Part shown: positions 13,786 to 19,799 of the stretch, piece after piece
Layout of the letters: each line of letters begins with the position of its first letter
Numbering within the stretch: position 1 is the first letter of the stretch
Origin: a virus
Reading direction: 5' to 3' (one strand)
Virus record (IMG/VR): IMGVR_UViG_3300032156_000085
Coordinates: 1 to 21,429 of that record
DNA: 21,429 bases
Made by a program: the position numbers and the translations under genes
The notes under the pieces: model-generated
Seen by the model: only the letters and a program-made list of their open reading frames with translations
What the model was told of the DNA's origin: nothing
Database searches by the model: none

Positions 13786-15573
13786 TCAGTAGCCAAACGC
13801 ATCCGCAACCACGAGCCCGCGCTCCTCGACGCCAAACCTTCGCCATTCATCCTCGTGTTCCAACTCCTCGATCTCAGTCGCTGTTGCGGGCCGCTCAAGG
13901 TTCCCAACCGCGTTCGCCTGTTCATCCAGCACGTCGAGCCGATCACTCCCAGGAAACGCGCTCAATTCCTCAATCAGGTTACGCGCACAGCCTTCCGCCG
14001 CATAGAACTTGCCTCGCGTCAGGACCGGCCCTAAGAGATGCCTGACCCGCGCCTTCTTGTCGCCCTTCGAGGGTTTCCCTTCGAGCGAAAAGCTTGTCTT
14101 ACGCATTTCCATCTCACGATAAAGTGCGCTCACCAACACGACCTGCATCGCGTTCGTCTCAACGATGGTACGCTGAATATACCCAGGGAACTGCTGGTGT
14201 GCCTCAAACACGTAATCGTAGAGCTGCGCGTCCCCAAAGTAGCCCACCCGCTCCCAAATCCTGTAGTGGTTGTCGTCCGAGTCCTTCGCCGTCAGCCCAA
14301 GGCTCGACTTCGACGTTTGGCTCGTGATGTTTCCCTCAGTTCCAGCCGGGTCCAACTGCAGCACCGTCGTGCATCCGTCAAGCGCCACGCGCGAGCCCTT
14401 CTCATCGAAGTTCTCGTCGCCCTTCCTTTTGATCCAAAACCGCCCTTCCTCCTTCACCACCACGCAAGACTTGACGCGAGCATTCGCGATCCCGCCCGCT
14501 CCCGCGATCGGCTTGATTGAGTTCTTGTAGTGACGAATCGCAGTCCACTGGTCGTCGATCAAAAGCCGCTCATAGTCGATCTTCGTCAAAACCTCAGGGC
14601 AGGTCTCGCGATCGCCCTCAACGATCGACCTGTAGTAGAGCGTCCACTCGCCCTCCGGCTCTACCTGGATCTCATCGTTCTTGAACCCAAAGACCTGCTT
14701 GCAGTTTCGTGCAATTCGCCTGACGTAGAGATCATCCGGCGCGTAAAACGTAAAGAACACCAAGTTGCGTGACTTGCGTTTCGACCTCAGTAAGGTAATC
14801 GAGTCCGTCTTGAACTTCTTGTCCGCAGCCTCCATCAACGTCGACGAAGCCATCATCGAGTCGAGCGAATCAAGCCCAATCGGATCATCCCAATGGATCA
14901 CCGTAAAGTGATCGCCTTCCTTCGCGCCCTCAATCCCCGCTGCCTGGATCGAGGGCTCCTTCCAATGTCGGCTGCGCCCCGGCGTCACCATCTCCTTGTC
15001 GTTCCAGCGCTTTGCATCAGTACGCGGGACGCGCTCCGGGTAAAGCGCCGCGAACAGTGGATTCGAATCGAAAATGCGTTGAACCGTCCACTTCCACTCG
15101 TGCGCCCGTTCCGCCTTCGCATTCAGGAAAAGGAAACACTCATCCGCGAACCTCGTCAGCTCCCACGCCGCCGCCCCGTGGTCCATTATGGTCGACTTGT
15201 ACGAGCCCCGAAAGACCGCCACCGCCGCACGCGCCCCGCTCGCCATGCACCACCGTGATTGCCTGAAGTTGCACATATCGAGGTGAAGGTCAGCGTTGAG
15301 ACCATTGTACGGGTTGTACGCGCCCGCCACAAACTTGAGGAAAAACCACAAGCTCACGAAGCCGGCTTGGCGAAACAGATCAATCACCTCGGCCGCCCCA
15401 ACCTGCGGGTGCGTCGAGCCCAATTCCGCGACAAGTTGCTTGAGCACCGTTTCAGCGCCCACCAGCGAGGCGAACGCGGGTGCGTCCGGATGTGGTGTTA
15501 TGGCAAAGGTAGGCGCCCTCACGAACTCAGGGTACGCAATCGCGTCCCGGTCGTAAGGTTTTCTCGCAGTCAA
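13786..15573 (-). CDS. terL: Terminase large subunit
   Basis: 595 aa packaging motor: ATPase plus headful or site-specific nuclease. Walker A is FRGSYKST (residues 121-128) and Walker B is FTVIHWDDP (223-231), with the two acidic residues D229-D230. The RNase-H-like nuclease half shows LQLDPAGTEGN (405-415; D408), IVETNA (470-475; E472) and the closing DVLDEQANA (547-555; D550), which together supply the metal-binding acids. The start is a TTG at 15573: the frame stays open to a stop near 15717 but contains no ATG, GTG or TTG further up, and the next candidate, a GTG at codon 18, has no ribosome site. AAGGA lies nine bases before the TTG. Confidence 0.93.
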   Translation of the reverse strand: MTARKPYDRDAIAYPEFVRAPTFAITPHPDAPAFASLVGAETVLKQLVAELGSTHPQVGAAEVIDLFRQAGFVSLWFFLKFVAGAYNPYNGLNADLHLDMCNFRQSRWCMASGARAAVAVFRGSYKSTIMDHGAAAWELTRFADECFLFLNAKAERAHEWKWTVQRIFDSNPLFAALYPERVPRTDAKRWNDKEMVTPGRSRHWKEPSIQAAGIEGAKEGDHFTVIHWDDPIGLDSLDSMMASSTLMEAADKKFKTDSITLLRSKRKSRNLVFFTFYAPDDLYVRRIARNCKQVFGFKNDEIQVEPEGEWTLYYRSIVEGDRETCPEVLTKIDYERLLIDDQWTAIRHYKNSIKPIAGAGGIANARVKSCVVVKEEGRFWIKRKGDENFDEKGSRVALDGCTTVLQLDPAGTEGNITSQTSKSSLGLTAKDSDDNHYRIWERVGYFGDAQLYDYVFEAHQQFPGYIQRTIVETNAMQVVLVSALYREMEMRKTSFSLEGKPSKGDKKARVRHLLGPVLTRGKFYAAEGCARNLIEELSAFPGSDRLDVLDEQANAVGNLERPATATEIEELEHEDEWRRFGVEERGLVVADAFGY

Positions 15574-15718: not shown

Positions 15719-16270
15719 TCATTCGTCCTCTCCCTCGCCTTCCATCTCAGCCAAAACCTCACTTGGGATGTTCGCCGGCGAAGCGCCGCGTTTCGCTTTT
15801 CCCTTCGACGCGCTCGCAGTCGCGGTGCGGCGCGCCCGGCGAGCGTCCTCCGGTGCGATTGCGATTGGTTTTGCTTTGCTTACCTGCCCCGCCCGCTTCG
15901 CGGGCGTAACGTCACGCTCGAGCGCCTTCAGGATAGCGCCTTCCGGCAGCGAGCGCCCGAACATCGCCGCGAGGCCCCCCAAGAGAGCCGCCAGCTCAGC
16001 TTGGGGGATCGCCGCTGCGGCCTGCGTCACTTTTGACTCGCGGGGCAAACCGATTCGATCAAGGATTGCTTCAGCAGCGCGAATCGAAGGGCCGTCGTCT
16101 TTACCGACTTGGGAAGGCCTCAGGGCTTCGACGGCCTCTTCGCCCATTTCCAGCAACTTGGTTTGGAGCGTTGCGAGGATGTCGGCTGGCGCGGGCGGCG
16201 CAGCAGTGAGCGTTTTTGACTGCGAGCCGTCTTCGGCTCGCCCGGCGAGCTTGGCGAGCGATTCACCCAT
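15719..16270 (-). CDS. Candidate terminase small subunit
   Basis: 183 aa, first gene of the late operon, ATG at 16270. The middle is helical: ILATLQTKLLEMGEEAVEALR (30-50), then a segment with SIRAAEAILDRIGLPRESK (62-80), the kind of 'A-x-x-I-L-D-R-x-G-L-P' motif seen in small terminases and related DNA-binding phage proteins, then an oligomerisation-like hydrophobic stretch (ELAALLGGLAAMFGRS). The C-terminus is basic (ARRARRTATASASKGKAKRG) and ends in a short acidic tail. Position directly before the large subunit supports the role, as does the motif. No Shine-Dalgarno site precedes the ATG; the message may be nearly leaderless. Three stem-loops lie in its coding sequence (15776-15788, 15890-15906, 16222-16241). 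Confidence 0.6.
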   Translation of the reverse strand: MGESLAKLAGRAEDGSQSKTLTAAPPAPADILATLQTKLLEMGEEAVEALRPSQVGKDDGPSIRAAEAILDRIGLPRESKVTQAAAAIPQAELAALLGGLAAMFGRSLPEGAILKALERDVTPAKRAGQVSKAKPIAIAPEDARRARRTATASASKGKAKRGASPANIPSEVLAEMEGEGEDE

Positions 16271-16272
16271 AT

Positions 16273-16308
16273 GTCGATGAGCTTAGGGTAGTTTGGGGCT
16301 GGTGTCAA
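16273..16308 (-). promoter_or_regulatory. Late-operon promoter candidate
   Basis: On the minus strand a perfect TTGACA (16303-16308) is followed after 17 bases by TAAGCT (16280-16285), three of six matches to TATAAT. Transcription would start near 16273, only a few bases before the ATG at 16270, which has no Shine-Dalgarno site. The message for the first late gene would therefore be leaderless or nearly so. It faces the late genes and lies after the terminator of the preceding gene, which fits its role. The weak -10 box keeps the confidence moderate. Confidence 0.5.
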
Positions 16309-16369
16309 GGTGGTGGCTGAGAGGCAGCTTTCAGTCAATGGTGTCGATCTAATTTTGGGCTGTCGCGGT

Positions 16370-16410
16370 GGGAGGGAGGCATACACACAAGTCGACCCCC
16401 CCTCCGTCCC
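16370..16410. repeat. Imperfect G/C-run stem
   Basis: GGGAGGGAGG (16370-16379) faces CCTCCGTCCC (16401-16410), nine of ten pairs, around a 21-base loop. It sits between the late promoter candidate and the terminator of the upstream gene. Function unknown; read-through RNA would fold here. Confidence 0.4.
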
Positions 16411-16433
16411 ATTTCGCTCCGCAAAACGCGGAC

Positions 16434-16465
16434 AAAAAAAAGCCCCTCGGCTTCGCGCCGAGGGG
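16434..16465 (-). terminator. Rho-independent terminator of the 171-aa gene
   Basis: Minus-strand order: stem CCCCTCGGC/GCCGAGGGG (16443-16451 and 16457-16465, 5-base loop), one C, then eight T (A run at 16434-16441 on the plus strand). Nine perfect GC-rich pairs plus a T run make this the clearest terminator in the window. It lies 30 bases after the stop of the 171-aa gene and before the late promoter, so it separates that gene from the late operon. A further stem, GGGCGCG/CGCGCCC with an AGGG loop (16470-16487), lies between the stop and the terminator. Confidence 0.9.
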
Positions 16466-16495
16466 TCAAGGGCGCGAGGGCGCGCCCCCAAGGAC

Positions 16496-17011
16496 CTACC
16501 ATTCGACTAAACGGCGCATCGCCGGATCGTTCGCGAACACGTACATGCGCCGTGCGCAAGGCGCGCCACTATGAGGACCGCGCGCATTAGCTGGCCAAGG
16601 TCGGCGCCGTGTCGCGTAGTACCGCATCCGTCCGACTTGTGCTCCTCCGCCCGTCGTGAGCATCGGCAGTCGAGGGTCGGTTGACGCGACCGCCCTCCGA
16701 TGCCGCCGCTTCTCCCTTCGCGCTTTCGCTCGCGCTACGTTCGCCATCGTATCAGCCTGCTTTCCGCGTGACACGTCGTGAGGCAAGCGTACGTAGACCG
16801 CGGGCTTGCCCATCCGTTCCGTCAGGTCAATCGCCAGCCCTCCTGCTTTTTGAATCGCGTCCATGATAGACGCGGGGCTTGCCATCATCCGCATTAGCTG
16901 CAGCGGCTCAGTGTCCAGAGCCCCGGTGTAAACCGTTGTCTCGACAACCGTTGGTCCCACGCCCGGATGCGACGCGACGGCGCGCATCCTTGTTACGATC
17001 AAGCTTTCCAT
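16496..17011 (-). CDS. 171-aa protein of the control region, unknown
   Basis: ATG at 17011 with GGAGGT seven bases upstream, so expression is likely efficient. It is transcribed alone: its own promoter candidate lies at 17032-17060 and a strong terminator follows it. The first half is folded (MESLIVTRMRAVASHPGVGP, then LQLMRMMASPASIMDAIQKAGGLAIDL and MGKPAVYVRLPHDVSRG); residues 88-105 are a very basic helix (NVARAKARREKRRHRRAV). The C-terminal third is Arg/Pro-rich and contains one copy of a 23-base repeat also found in the nearby structured element. The basic helix and the position between the two operons would suit a DNA- or RNA-binding regulator, but no known family is visible. Confidence 0.7.
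   Translation of the reverse strand: MESLIVTRMRAVASHPGVGPTVVETTVYTGALDTEPLQLMRMMASPASIMDAIQKAGGLAIDLTERMGKPAVYVRLPHDVSRGKQADTMANVARAKARREKRRHRRAVASTDPRLPMLTTGGGAQVGRMRYYATRRRPWPANARGPHSGAPCARRMYVFANDPAMRRLVEW
16554..16576. repeat. 23-base direct repeat, copy 1
   Basis: Identical to 17146-17168; includes the palindrome GGCGCGCC and ends in ACTATGAGG. This copy lies inside the 3' part of the 171-aa gene (codons for GPHSGAPCARR). Confidence 0.9.
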
Positions 17012-17031
17012 TTTGCGAACCTCCGAATAGA

Positions 17032-17060
17032 ACCGTACATCGAAAAGACGAATGTGTCAA
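17032..17060 (-). promoter_or_regulatory. Promoter candidate for the 171-aa gene
   Basis: Perfect TTGACA (17055-17060, minus strand), a 17-base spacer and TACGGT (17032-17037), three of six matches. Transcription would begin near 17025, leaving a leader of about 14 bases that includes GGAGGT (17019-17024). On the plus strand a TTGACT box (17077-17082) points the other way, towards the structured element; its -10 partner is unclear (TATGCT after 14 bases or TAAGGT after 19). Confidence 0.5.
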
Positions 17061-17104
17061 GAGCTTTTCCAAACCCTTGACTTAGCTACACCCCACTATG
17101 CTAA

Positions 17105-17221
17105 GGTTCGCCCAGTCAGTAAGTCCAGCGGAGAGGCGCCCCGCCGCGCAAGGCGCGCCACTATGAGGCAGACGCCTTACATGGGGAAAACGGATAAGCC
17201 TTCCTCTCCGCTGGGCGAACC
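17105..17221 (+). ncRNA. Long base-paired element, candidate structured RNA
   Basis: The ends pair: GGTTCGCC (17105-17112) with GGCGAACC (17214-17221), then, after a 12-base bulge on the 5' side only, CAGCGGAGAGG (17125-17135) with CCTCTCCGCTG (17203-17213). That gives 19 perfect pairs in two stacked helices with no gap on the 3' side. The inside holds a small hairpin, TGAGGC/GCCTTA with an AGAC loop (17164-17179). A TTGACT box lies shortly upstream on the plus strand. No protein frame covers it. It is not a tRNA: no T-loop or D-arm is present. Strand cannot be decided from pairing alone; plus is chosen because of the box. Confidence 0.5.
17146..17168. repeat. 23-base direct repeat, copy 2
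   Basis: Second copy of the repeat at 16554-16576, without mismatches. It lies within the interior of the base-paired element, and its ATGAGG end forms one arm of the small inner hairpin. Confidence 0.9.
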
Positions 17222-17500
17222 ATAGAGCTGCGCCAAGGTGCGGCTCGCCCTAACCGCCGGAAGGTGCTCGACACCACACGTGAATGGTAGAACGGACACG
17301 CGTGCCGGCGGAATCGGTCAAGAGGCCCGCGAACGTGTGTCAGGTTAGAAACAGCATTCCGCCTTAGCAGACTGGCACTGACCTGGACTTAGCATAACGC
17401 GGCGGGCTTACATACCGTCAAGATGGGGGAAACGCACCCCGAGCGCCAGATACGGGGTGCTTCCCCCTTCCCCCTAATCCCGATCGACTTACCGTAGTTA
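17222..17500. other. Non-coding tract with further pairing
   Basis: No gene is supported. It holds CCGCCGG/CCGGCGG (17254-17260 with 17305-17311) enclosing a GGTG/CACC hairpin (17263-17275); GTCAGGT (17339-17345) facing ACCTG-G-AC (17381-17388); a possible long-range helix CCCGCCGCG/CGCGGCGGG (17140-17148 with 17398-17406) reaching back into the element at 17105-17221; and a strong stem, GGGGGAA plus GCACCCC facing GGGGTGC plus TTCCCCC (17425-17467, one 2-base bulge, 13-base loop). No T run follows, so the last is not a standard terminator. Together they suggest one folded RNA or a protein-loaded DNA control region. Confidence 0.4.
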
Positions 17501-17516
17501 GATTGGATTGGGAAAT

Positions 17517-17863
17517 GCGAATTCGCGTCTAATTCGCACCCAATTCGCAAAGCACTTAAAAACACCCGTTCGCTTCCTAACTCCTTACACACACACACTT
17601 AAGACACACACACTAAGCACCAAGAGCACCAAGATTCGCAAAACCTCTCCGGGCGTTTTTTTGAAAAAGTCAAAATTGCGAATTTTGCTTACGCGGTAGG
17701 GTCAAAATGACCCACTTTCGCCCTAAGTGCTTACCCCGTAAGCAAATACGCAAATGCGAATCCCTTGCGAATTCCCTGCGAATTCGCTGCTTCGGGTGGC
17801 CGAGACGGCCACCCTTCGCCACCTAAGGCGCCGCCGCCGCCCTGCGAACGCCCCGCGAATCGC
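17517..17863. other. Origin-like tract with iterated GCGAATT/AATTCGC
   Basis: AT-richer than its surroundings. The 7-mer GCGAATT or its complement occurs at 17517 (inside the palindrome GCGAATTCGC, 17517-17526), 17531, 17542, 17678, 17767 and 17778 (again GCGAATTCGC, 17778-17787), with near copies at 17634, 17756 and 17855. Further symmetric sites: CAAAATT-GCG-AATTTTG (17671-17687), GGGTCA-AAA-TGACCC (17699-17713), GCTTAC-CCC-GTAAGC (17729-17743), and a 10-base inverted pair TTTGCTTACG/CGTAAGCAAA (17684-17693 with 17737-17746). A CA-rich stretch with a tandem AGCACCAAG (17616-17633) lies within it. Iterated sites next to an SSB-bearing operon fit a replication origin or an operator cluster. 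Confidence 0.5.
17794..17814. repeat. Nine-pair GC stem-loop
   Basis: GGGTGGCCG/CGGCCACCC with an AGA loop, perfect over nine pairs. It lies 100 bases upstream of the first early gene and is not followed by a T run. It is the strongest short stem of the dispersed set and might block or protect the 5' end of the early message. Confidence 0.75.
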
Positions 17864-17915
17864 ACCCCGACGGCAGCTCCCTTAGAGCTGACTCTCCCCC
17901 TCAAGGAAGGCCCCC

Positions 17916-18092
17916 ATGACCGCATCCCTCAAGGACGGCAAGCTCACCATCGTGATCGAAACCCAGCCTCCTACACCCAGCGCCTCCGGCAAGACCCTCG
18001 TGGTCGCCACCACGCACGGCAACGTCGCCACCCAGGTGCTCGTGGACGGCAAGCCCCTCATCATCGGCCTCAACGCCTACGTGCGCGCCTAA
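17916..18092 (+). CDS. Conserved 58-aa early phage protein
   Basis: ATG at 17916 with AAGGAAGG five bases upstream; TAA at 18090-18092. It opens MTASLKDGKLTIVIE, continues with TPSASGKTLVVATTHGN and closes with DGKPLIIGLNAYVRA. This is a small protein type I recall from phages and mobile elements of several bacterial groups, with conserved S-x-S-G-K-T-L-V-V-A-(S/T)-T-H-G-N and I-G-L-N-A-Y. The function is not known to me. The pattern of short strands suggests a compact beta fold. Codons end mostly in C, as in its neighbours. First gene of the early-type operon. Confidence 0.85.
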   Translation: MTASLKDGKLTIVIETQPPTPSASGKTLVVATTHGNVATQVLVDGKPLIIGLNAYVRA

Positions 18093-18167: not shown

Positions 18168-18620
18168 ATGGTCACCACCACCCCCCCGCGCGAAGCGCGC
18201 GGGCACCCGCTCATGACCCTCCCCCTCACGACCATCCCCCTCTACCAAGCCCTCTCCAGTGCCTTAGCTTGGGCGCGAAACGCGCCCCCAACATGGACCG
18301 CAACCGCATACGCCCAGCTCGACTCTCTCCAAGCTGACCATCTCCCTCACGGCTCCGGCCTTGATGGGACCCACCATTCCCTCGATCGGAACGCCTCCAC
18401 CCCAGAGCGTCTCGTCTTCAATCTCGATTACCACTTCATGGACGACTCCGGCATGTACGCCGGCTGGTACTCTTACATCCTCACCGTCAAAGCATCCCTC
18501 CAAAACGGAATCACCCTCCGCACAACCGGCCGCGAGACACCCGGCGGCGGCACCCGCGATTACCTCTCCGAGCTATTTGACCAAGCCCTCCGCACCCCCG
18601 TGCCACGCAACCTTACCTGA
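18168..18620 (+). CDS. Conserved early protein, HGSG-x-D/MDD-x-G-x-Y-x-GW family
   Basis: 150 aa. The ATG at 18168 is chosen because GGAGG stands five bases before it; the frame is open from 18129 but no ribosome site precedes that ATG. Conserved-looking blocks: LPHGSGLDG (59-67), PERLVFNLDYHFMDDSGMYAGW (79-100), LTVKASLQNGITLRTTGR (105-122) and DYLSELFDQAL (131-141). I recognise this block order from a family of small phage and mobile-element proteins whose role is unknown. The first 15 residues (including PPREARG) are coded by a GC stem-loop and may be an added extension; a second stem-loop (18271-18287) codes for AWARNAPP. It carries the in-frame copy of a 28-base repeat. Confidence 0.8.
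   Translation: MVTTTPPREARGHPLMTLPLTTIPLYQALSSALAWARNAPPTWTATAYAQLDSLQADHLPHGSGLDGTHHSLDRNASTPERLVFNLDYHFMDDSGMYAGWYSYILTVKASLQNGITLRTTGRETPGGGTRDYLSELFDQALRTPVPRNLT
18186..18202. repeat. GC stem-loop, identical to 18094-18110
   Basis: CCGCGCG-AAG-CGCGCGG inside codons 7-12 of the 150-aa gene. A related stem, GGGCGCG-AAA-CGCGCCC, lies at 18271-18287 in the same gene. Confidence 0.85.
18459..18486. repeat. 28-base repeat, in-frame copy
   Basis: Identical to 19519-19546. Here it encodes the AGWYSYILT stretch (98-106), which lines up without a gap with the family's expected Y-x-G-W block, so this is probably the original copy. Confidence 0.9.
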
Positions 18621-18938: not shown

Positions 18939-18965
18939 ATGTTCCCTAAAGCGAGCCCCCGATGA
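18939..18965 (+). promoter_or_regulatory. Eight-codon upstream frame coupled to ssb
   Basis: ATG at 18939 reads MFPKASPR and stops at TGA 18963-18965, which overlaps the SSB ATG (ATGA). SSB itself has no good Shine-Dalgarno site, while AAAGGAG stands at 18898-18904 after the previous stop, within a small AGGAG/CTCCT hairpin. Coupled translation through this mini-frame is possible. Confidence 0.35.
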
Positions 18966-19288
18966 ATTCACTCAACTCCGCCCTGCTCGAAGGTTCCCTG
19001 ACAGAGGAACCTATCCTCAGTTACACTCCAGACGGACTCGCCGTCTGCACCTTCACCATCGCCTCTCACCGCCGCGTCAAGAAAGACGACGCCTACCACG
19101 AGGAAATCTTCCACTTCAACATAGTTACCCACGCGCACCTCGCCACATTCTGCCACGAGTACCTCAAGCAGGATCGTGGCGTGCGCGTCGTGGGTCGCCT
19201 CAGTCAGGATACGGCCAAGCAGGTCTTCCTTGAGGCTGAGCACGTCGAACTCAAGCCCGAACCTGCCGCAGAGGAGATCAAGAAATGA
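18962..19288 (+). CDS. ssb: Single-stranded DNA-binding protein
   Basis: 108 aa. OB-fold protein that coats single-stranded DNA during replication and recombination. The order of strands is typical: NSALLEGSLTEEPILSY (4-20), LAVCTFTIASHRR (26-38), EEIFHFNIVTHAHLATFC (47-64), then GVRVVGRLSQD (73-83) and VFLEAEHVEL (88-97). Aromatic residues F31, F50 and F52 sit where SSBs stack bases. It is shorter than bacterial SSB (about 170 aa), and the C-terminus ends in EEIKK rather than the acidic DDDIPF-type tip, so recruitment of host partners through that tip is unlikely. It is the only gene of the plus-strand block with a known biochemical role and marks the block as replication-related. Confidence 0.92.
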   Translation: MNSLNSALLEGSLTEEPILSYTPDGLAVCTFTIASHRRVKKDDAYHEEIFHFNIVTHAHLATFCHEYLKQDRGVRVVGRLSQDTAKQVFLEAEHVELKPEPAAEEIKK

Positions 19289-19361: not shown

Positions 19362-19799
19362 ATGCCAACCCGTTGCCAAGTCCATGTCACCGGCTTCGCC
19401 CAAAACGAGCCCCCCATCTCCCTCTACCACCACTGTGACGGCTACCCAGAGAATATGGTCCCCCTTCTCCAAGACGCCCGGATCAAGGCCAGCACCAACT
19501 GGAAGAACGGATGCGCCGGCCGGCTGGTACTCTTACATCCTCACCGAGTCGCCTCCTTCATCGTCGCAATCGACCCCGGCGGCTATGACATCGAGCTATC
19601 CCCCGCCCTCCACAGCGACATCGAGTATCTCTACCAGCTCATCGTCCAAAATCACCACTACAGCAAGGAGCCAACCTGGAAACTTCGCATTCTCATTCCC
19701 AAACCCGGCTTCTGGAACGCGCCCGACCTTGCCCACATGAAGCTCCTCTGGCAAGGGCTCATCGAAGACGCCGATCCCGCCGTCAAGGCGACCCCCTAA
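19362..19799 (+). CDS. Conserved early protein, LYHHxDGYPENM family
   Basis: 145 aa, ATG at 19362 with AAAGGAG upstream. The opening MPTRCQVHVTG and the block LYHHCDGYPENMVPLL (21-36), followed by VASFIVAIDPGGYDIE (63-78) and LHSDIEYLYQLIVQN (83-97), match a family I recall from phage and mobile-element genomes: MPTRC, then an LYHH-x-DGYP block, then an LHGDIEYYYRL-like block. The function is unknown. Residues 54-62 (RLVLLHPHR), just before VASF, are encoded by a 28-base copy of part of the 150-aa gene read in another frame; relatives, as I remember them, have a single Lys here. The protein may therefore carry an insertion. Confidence 0.8.
   Translation: MPTRCQVHVTGFAQNEPPISLYHHCDGYPENMVPLLQDARIKASTNWKNGCAGRLVLLHPHRVASFIVAIDPGGYDIELSPALHSDIEYLYQLIVQNHHYSKEPTWKLRILIPKPGFWNAPDLAHMKLLWQGLIEDADPAVKATP
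19519..19546. repeat. 28-base repeat, out-of-frame copy
   Basis: Identical to 18459-18486 but read in a different frame. It is flanked on the left by a partial duplication of GCCGG, a possible junction mark. Confidence 0.9.

Follow-up and report, generated by a model that had tools for sequence, protein, structure and literature searches.

The approximately 900 non-coding bases at positions 17012-17915 of the viral contig examined here are best explained as a control region separating a leftward late operon, which encodes terminase, portal and capsid, from a rightward early operon that includes an SSB. Within this region we propose, with a probability of roughly 0.4, an iteron-type replication origin/control region bearing a folded late-side flank, the latter perhaps a primer-type or leader RNA. 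The window analysed, 21,429 bases, is the entire contig record, which is probably a genome fragment. Encoded leftward are the large terminase (13786-15573; phrog_38, E 1e-29), a portal-like protein and a major-head-protein-like protein, and an SSB-like protein is encoded rightward at 18962-19288. Bordering the non-coding gap are a leftward 171-aa ORF (16496-17011, minus strand), preceded by a GGAGG ribosome site and matching no family at significance, and the first rightward ORF, beginning at 17916. Past the leftward ORF lies a terminator-like hairpin on the minus strand, with a 9-pair stem and a run of eight T (16442-16465). A foldable element occupies the left half of the gap, and the right half, specifically 17486-17814, would most likely be the replication origin.

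Evidence for an origin comes from repeats clustered around an A+T-rich stretch. All six exact copies of TGCGAATT in the contig, counting both strands, fall within 17516-17784, forming an iteron array which starts 120 bases to the right of the foldable element; in mononucleotide shuffles of the contig, an 8-mer rarely occurred four times inside 400 bases. The array includes inverted arms at 17517-17549 and 17755-17787 (33 nt, 76% complementary), which surround the most A+T-rich 200 bases of the contig; no longer imperfect inverted repeat was detected in the contig with the settings applied. GC content reaches its minimum here, at 43% for a 200-base window (at 17486) and 37% for a 60-base window (at 17631), and the lowest-GC stretch as a whole (17486-17715) is a possible unwinding region. 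Also identified were an inverted repeat within the array, TTTGCTTACGCGGTA/TACCCCGTAAGCAAA (17684-17746), and a perfect 9-pair hairpin on its early-gene side, GGGTGGCCG/CGGCCACCC (17794-17814). The region therefore displays the clustered short motifs in non-coding sequence expected of an iteron-type origin, together with the adjoining A+T-rich stretch, which relatives likewise possess.

Repeats combined with an A+T-rich core are the usual anatomy of a protein-opened origin, and iteron-type origins are known from both phages and plasmids, e.g. lambda ori with its O protein and P1 oriR with RepA. As in those systems, clustered short repeats adjoin an A+T-rich stretch within one region; unlike them, the repeats of the contig form inverted arms on both sides of that stretch, and their position is between the early and late operons, not within or next to a known initiator gene. 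By analogy, an initiator protein would bind the inverted arms of TGCGAATT repeats and open the A+T-rich stretch between them. Two points weigh against this proposal: no initiator gene was recognised within the contig fragment, and iteron arrays can also serve as repressor operators, such that a repressor operator array is an alternative identity for these repeats.

The arrangement recurs in related phages. A search with the terminase recovered 43 viral loci of 28-42% identity, in addition to an archaeal-host-assigned virus (BK063670). In nearly all of 14 records the lowest-GC stretch, measured in a 60- or 200-base window, was non-coding and located upstream of the terminase, with locus L016, which is A+T-rich throughout, being the clear exception. 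Three relatives share the layout of the contig: L012 carries seven copies of GTAGTACA and 70-nt inverted arms, L033 eight copies of AATTATGC and inverted arms of up to 201 nt, and BK063670 has AAAATGCA-type repeats on one side of a TATATA tract and TGCATTTT on the other. Despite this equal layout, their repeat sequences are unrelated to those of the contig. Inverted arms likewise flank the A+T minimum of L008, and L020 has, at the place of the A+T minimum, five DnaA-box-like boxes resembling TTATCCACA, one of them inverted. Intergenic pieces that at first appeared conserved among relatives in blastn comparisons proved to be mostly TATATA tracts.

Because iterons with inverted arms around an A+T minimum adjoin the foldable element, and because relatives keep this layout at the same place, the origin reading is favoured; it is also the one we favour among three suggestions made by the initial annotation for the element, namely an origin-associated structure, a phage non-coding RNA and a packaging structure. 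If correct, replication origins could be located by position in a poorly known phage group, since repeat sequences change among its members but the layout stays. The folded element would in turn become a candidate example of origin control by RNA, something known from few phages. The compound proposal that a group of uncultured tailed phages shares an origin layout of inverted iteron arms around an A+T-rich core, with wholly different repeats in each member, and that in this phage a large folded RNA transcribed into the origin primes or regulates replication, is improbable as a whole.

The left half of the gap contains more extensive base pairing than expected. The initial annotation described two stacked perfect helices of 8 and 11 pairs, closing a 117-base element (17105-17221, plus strand), and both helices were confirmed and found to be beyond chance in shuffles. 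An outer helix of 11 pairs is formed by GGTTCGCCCAG and CTGGGCGAACC (17105-17115/17211-17221), and an inner one of 12 pairs by CCAGCGGAGAGG and CCTCTCCGCTGG (17125-17136/17203-17214), both on the plus strand. Their inverted repeats overlap in a common CTGG, and when stacked the helices amount to about 8 and 11 pairs, as originally described. None of 100 dinucleotide shuffles of 17012-17915 reached a 12-pair match, and the same region holds 11 perfect inverted matches of at least 9 pairs, compared with a mean of 0.76 and a maximum of 4 among 100 such shuffles. The 117-nt element yielded a folding z-score of -4.5 (-3.5 with an independent shuffle set), and a 306-nt segment (17095-17400) a z-score of -4.7, matched by none of 100 shuffles.

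The whole foldable element spans about 17097-17397 on the plus strand, comprising a long-range closing helix and several internal stems. Beyond the 117 bases these include a hairpin GAGCTGCGC/GTGCGGCTC (17225-17246; pair probability about 1.0), a branched stem with closing pairs CCGCCGG/CCGGCGG (17254-17311; 0.99) and a stem TCAGGTTAG/CTGACCTGG (17340-17386; about 0.996), all on the plus strand. Further stems had been noted up to 17467, and a long GC-rich hairpin lacking a T run is indeed present at 17426-17467, beyond the main fold. Within the full-length ensemble, pair probability is 0.995 for the inner helix and 0.60 for the outer one, the latter competing with a helix between 17106-17111 and 17329-17334 (probability 0.39). 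Given that the outer helix is contested and that the fold extends past 117 nt, the boundaries initially drawn cut through a larger fold.

The closing helix corresponds to a previously noted long-range 9-pair match, TATGCTAAG (17097-17105) with CTTAGCATA (17388-17396), which is present as described but taken alone is near chance, a match of at least 9 pairs being expected about 0.8 times per shuffle of the non-coding region; its probability in the full ensemble is about 0.5. The 301 bp between these perfect 9-base inverted repeats might also be what is left of a small, non-autonomous transposable element whose terminal inverted repeats are TATGCTAAG. We consider this very improbable: copies elsewhere, as expected of a mobile element, were not found in the contig, phages, plasmids or viral contigs, no clear target duplication was seen, and the repeats themselves match at a level near chance for the region.

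Whether the element acts as RNA bears on its coding and promoter signals. As initially reported, it has no protein frame (no ORF of at least 60 aa between 17085 and 17389) and no tRNA features, a tRNA search of the element being empty. A TTGACT box noted just upstream was located at 17077-17082, but has no -10 box at standard spacing. It forms part of a pair of inverted TGTCAA/TTGACT boxes (17056-17082) between the element and the leftward gene, of which TGTCAA reads TTGACA on the minus strand; no full promoter was found there, and a scan of 16250-18000 for sigma-70-type promoters found no site. A reported local difference in G/C balance is weak: the skew of -0.08 to -0.13 at 17.0-17.6 kb does contrast with values of about -0.2 to -0.4 further right, but is similarly mild already from 15.5 kb onward.

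Folding was also compared between strands, using 200 shuffles each. The 301-nt element gave z-scores of -4.7 on the plus strand and -3.7 on the minus strand, and the 117-nt element -3.5 and -4.3, respectively. As both strands fold about equally relative to expectation, folding cannot separate an RNA from DNA palindromes, and strand bias was given up as a proof of RNA. Related phages present a similar picture. On the late side of their A+T stretch, 14-16% of windows had z-scores below -3, compared with 2% in terminase coding sequence, and these foldable windows had neither a strand preference nor any sequence in common; a strand bias first apparent with 24 shuffles did not hold in a wider test. 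Relatives thus carry hairpins on the late side, though not demonstrably the same RNA.

These observations lend weight to the possibility that the inverted repeats act as DNA, either as cruciform-prone palindromes or as protein sites of an origin or operator, with no functional RNA involved. Near-equal fold excess on the two strands, in the contig as in its relatives, is what DNA palindromes would produce, and no rightward promoter was found; both points count against the transcript that we propose, which lacks a promoter of standard spacing. Conversely, such DNA sites are less expected to form several unequal branched stems along 300 nt, protein-binding palindromes being short and repeated. 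This DNA-only explanation is almost as likely as one involving a rightward transcript. Under the origin reading with its folded flank, the element would be the lineage-specific late-side flank of the origin and, most likely, the folded 5' portion of a transcript starting near 17090 and running rightward to the origin and early genes, and may serve as a cis-acting leader or primer-type RNA. The suggestion of a phage non-coding RNA accordingly stands as possible but unproven, there being no homologue, no standard-spacing promoter and nearly equal folding of the strands.

Precedents for such RNAs exist, although no kinship with them is claimed. In cluster A mycobacteriophages, a non-coding RNA was shown to be expressed and to be needed when the prophage replicates (PMC7157519); the contig similarly has a candidate non-coding RNA region which may serve replication, but differs from those RNA-based origins in possessing an iteron array. 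The put RNA of phage HK022 is reported to be a cis-acting nascent phage RNA (PMC9378689), with which the element shares a possible position as folded RNA upstream of early genes, and to which it has no sequence or demonstrated functional likeness. A comparable early-operon leader RNA controlling transcription elongation or termination is conceivable, given the location upstream of rightward early genes, the lack of any T-run terminator found on the plus strand between the element and those genes, and the example of put itself. We regard it as unlikely, as the first gene is 500 bases away with the iteron array in between, and likeness to put elements, checked against Rfam alone, gave no match.

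Searches for relatives of the element were negative across several sources. Among 4227 Rfam families, including GOLLD and ROOL, none matched at gathering score and relaxed thresholds returned nothing in the element, the best weak match within it being a plant-virus hairpin (E 9.5). GOLLD and ROOL RNAs range in length from about 660 to more than 800 nt and are often found near tRNA islands (PMC12286853); the element resembles them as a multi-branched folded non-coding phage stretch, but has no Rfam match and measures about 301 nt, leaving its reading as an ornate phage RNA without support. No homologue was found by blastn against named phages and plasmids. A single-sequence covariance model of the 117-nt element, a type of model with little reach, recovered only the element itself among 46 loci and had no match in 16 records from which loci were taken. 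Exact-pattern scans of viral contigs (20 bases of the 23-base repeat described below, GGGGAAAACGGATAAGCC and TATGCTAAGGTTCGCCC) were empty apart from one chance match, to an unrelated 154-kb contig that lacks the remainder of the foldable element. Close relatives sought through neighbouring genes were either absent or distant only. The element being without a relative, nothing in the sequences compared suggests that its structure is conserved, which weighs against the transcript proposed above.

The same lack of conservation bears on the suggested packaging site (pac/cos), to be read by the small terminase subunit. The element does lie upstream of the terminase operon, but no relative keeps its sequence, the start of the large subunit gene is 1.5 kb and two ORFs away, and a small terminase subunit was not identified. 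With no positive evidence in its favour, a packaging role appears highly doubtful; overall, the interpretation offered by the initial annotation is partly supported.

Several smaller features were observed among the relatives. A hairpin, TGTATGAWAAATCATACR, is common to the distantly related L033 and BK063670 (L033:3628-3651, minus strand; L054:293-308, plus strand), occurring in the corresponding non-coding region of each and in the same orientation to the terminase. Absent from the 21,429-base window, it is possibly a conserved structured RNA of the phage group. L015 and L019 share about 76 bases that are 75% identical and include a GC-rich hairpin, in non-coding sequence upstream of the terminase (reverse strand, positions 96-171 and 837-912 of the extracted regions). 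At the end of record BK063670 (L049:1-43), a tandem repeat of the unit GAGCGGACTCG lies at the junction of the circular record.

Two exact repeats were also identified in the contig. The first, a direct repeat of 23 bases (GCGCAAGGCGCGCCACTATGAGG), occurs on the same strand at 16554-16576, towards the 3' end of the leftward ORF, and at 17146-17168, within the folded element. Its CACTAT core is reminiscent of T7-type phage promoters; a search of 12 records for the corresponding polymerase (PF00940) gave no match, the positive control also being without signal. The second, of 28 bases (GCCGGCTGGTACTCTTACATCCTCACCG), occurs at 18459-18486 and 19519-19546, within two rightward ORFs and in different frames, and its copy in the second ORF coincides with an 8-residue gap in the L012 homologue.
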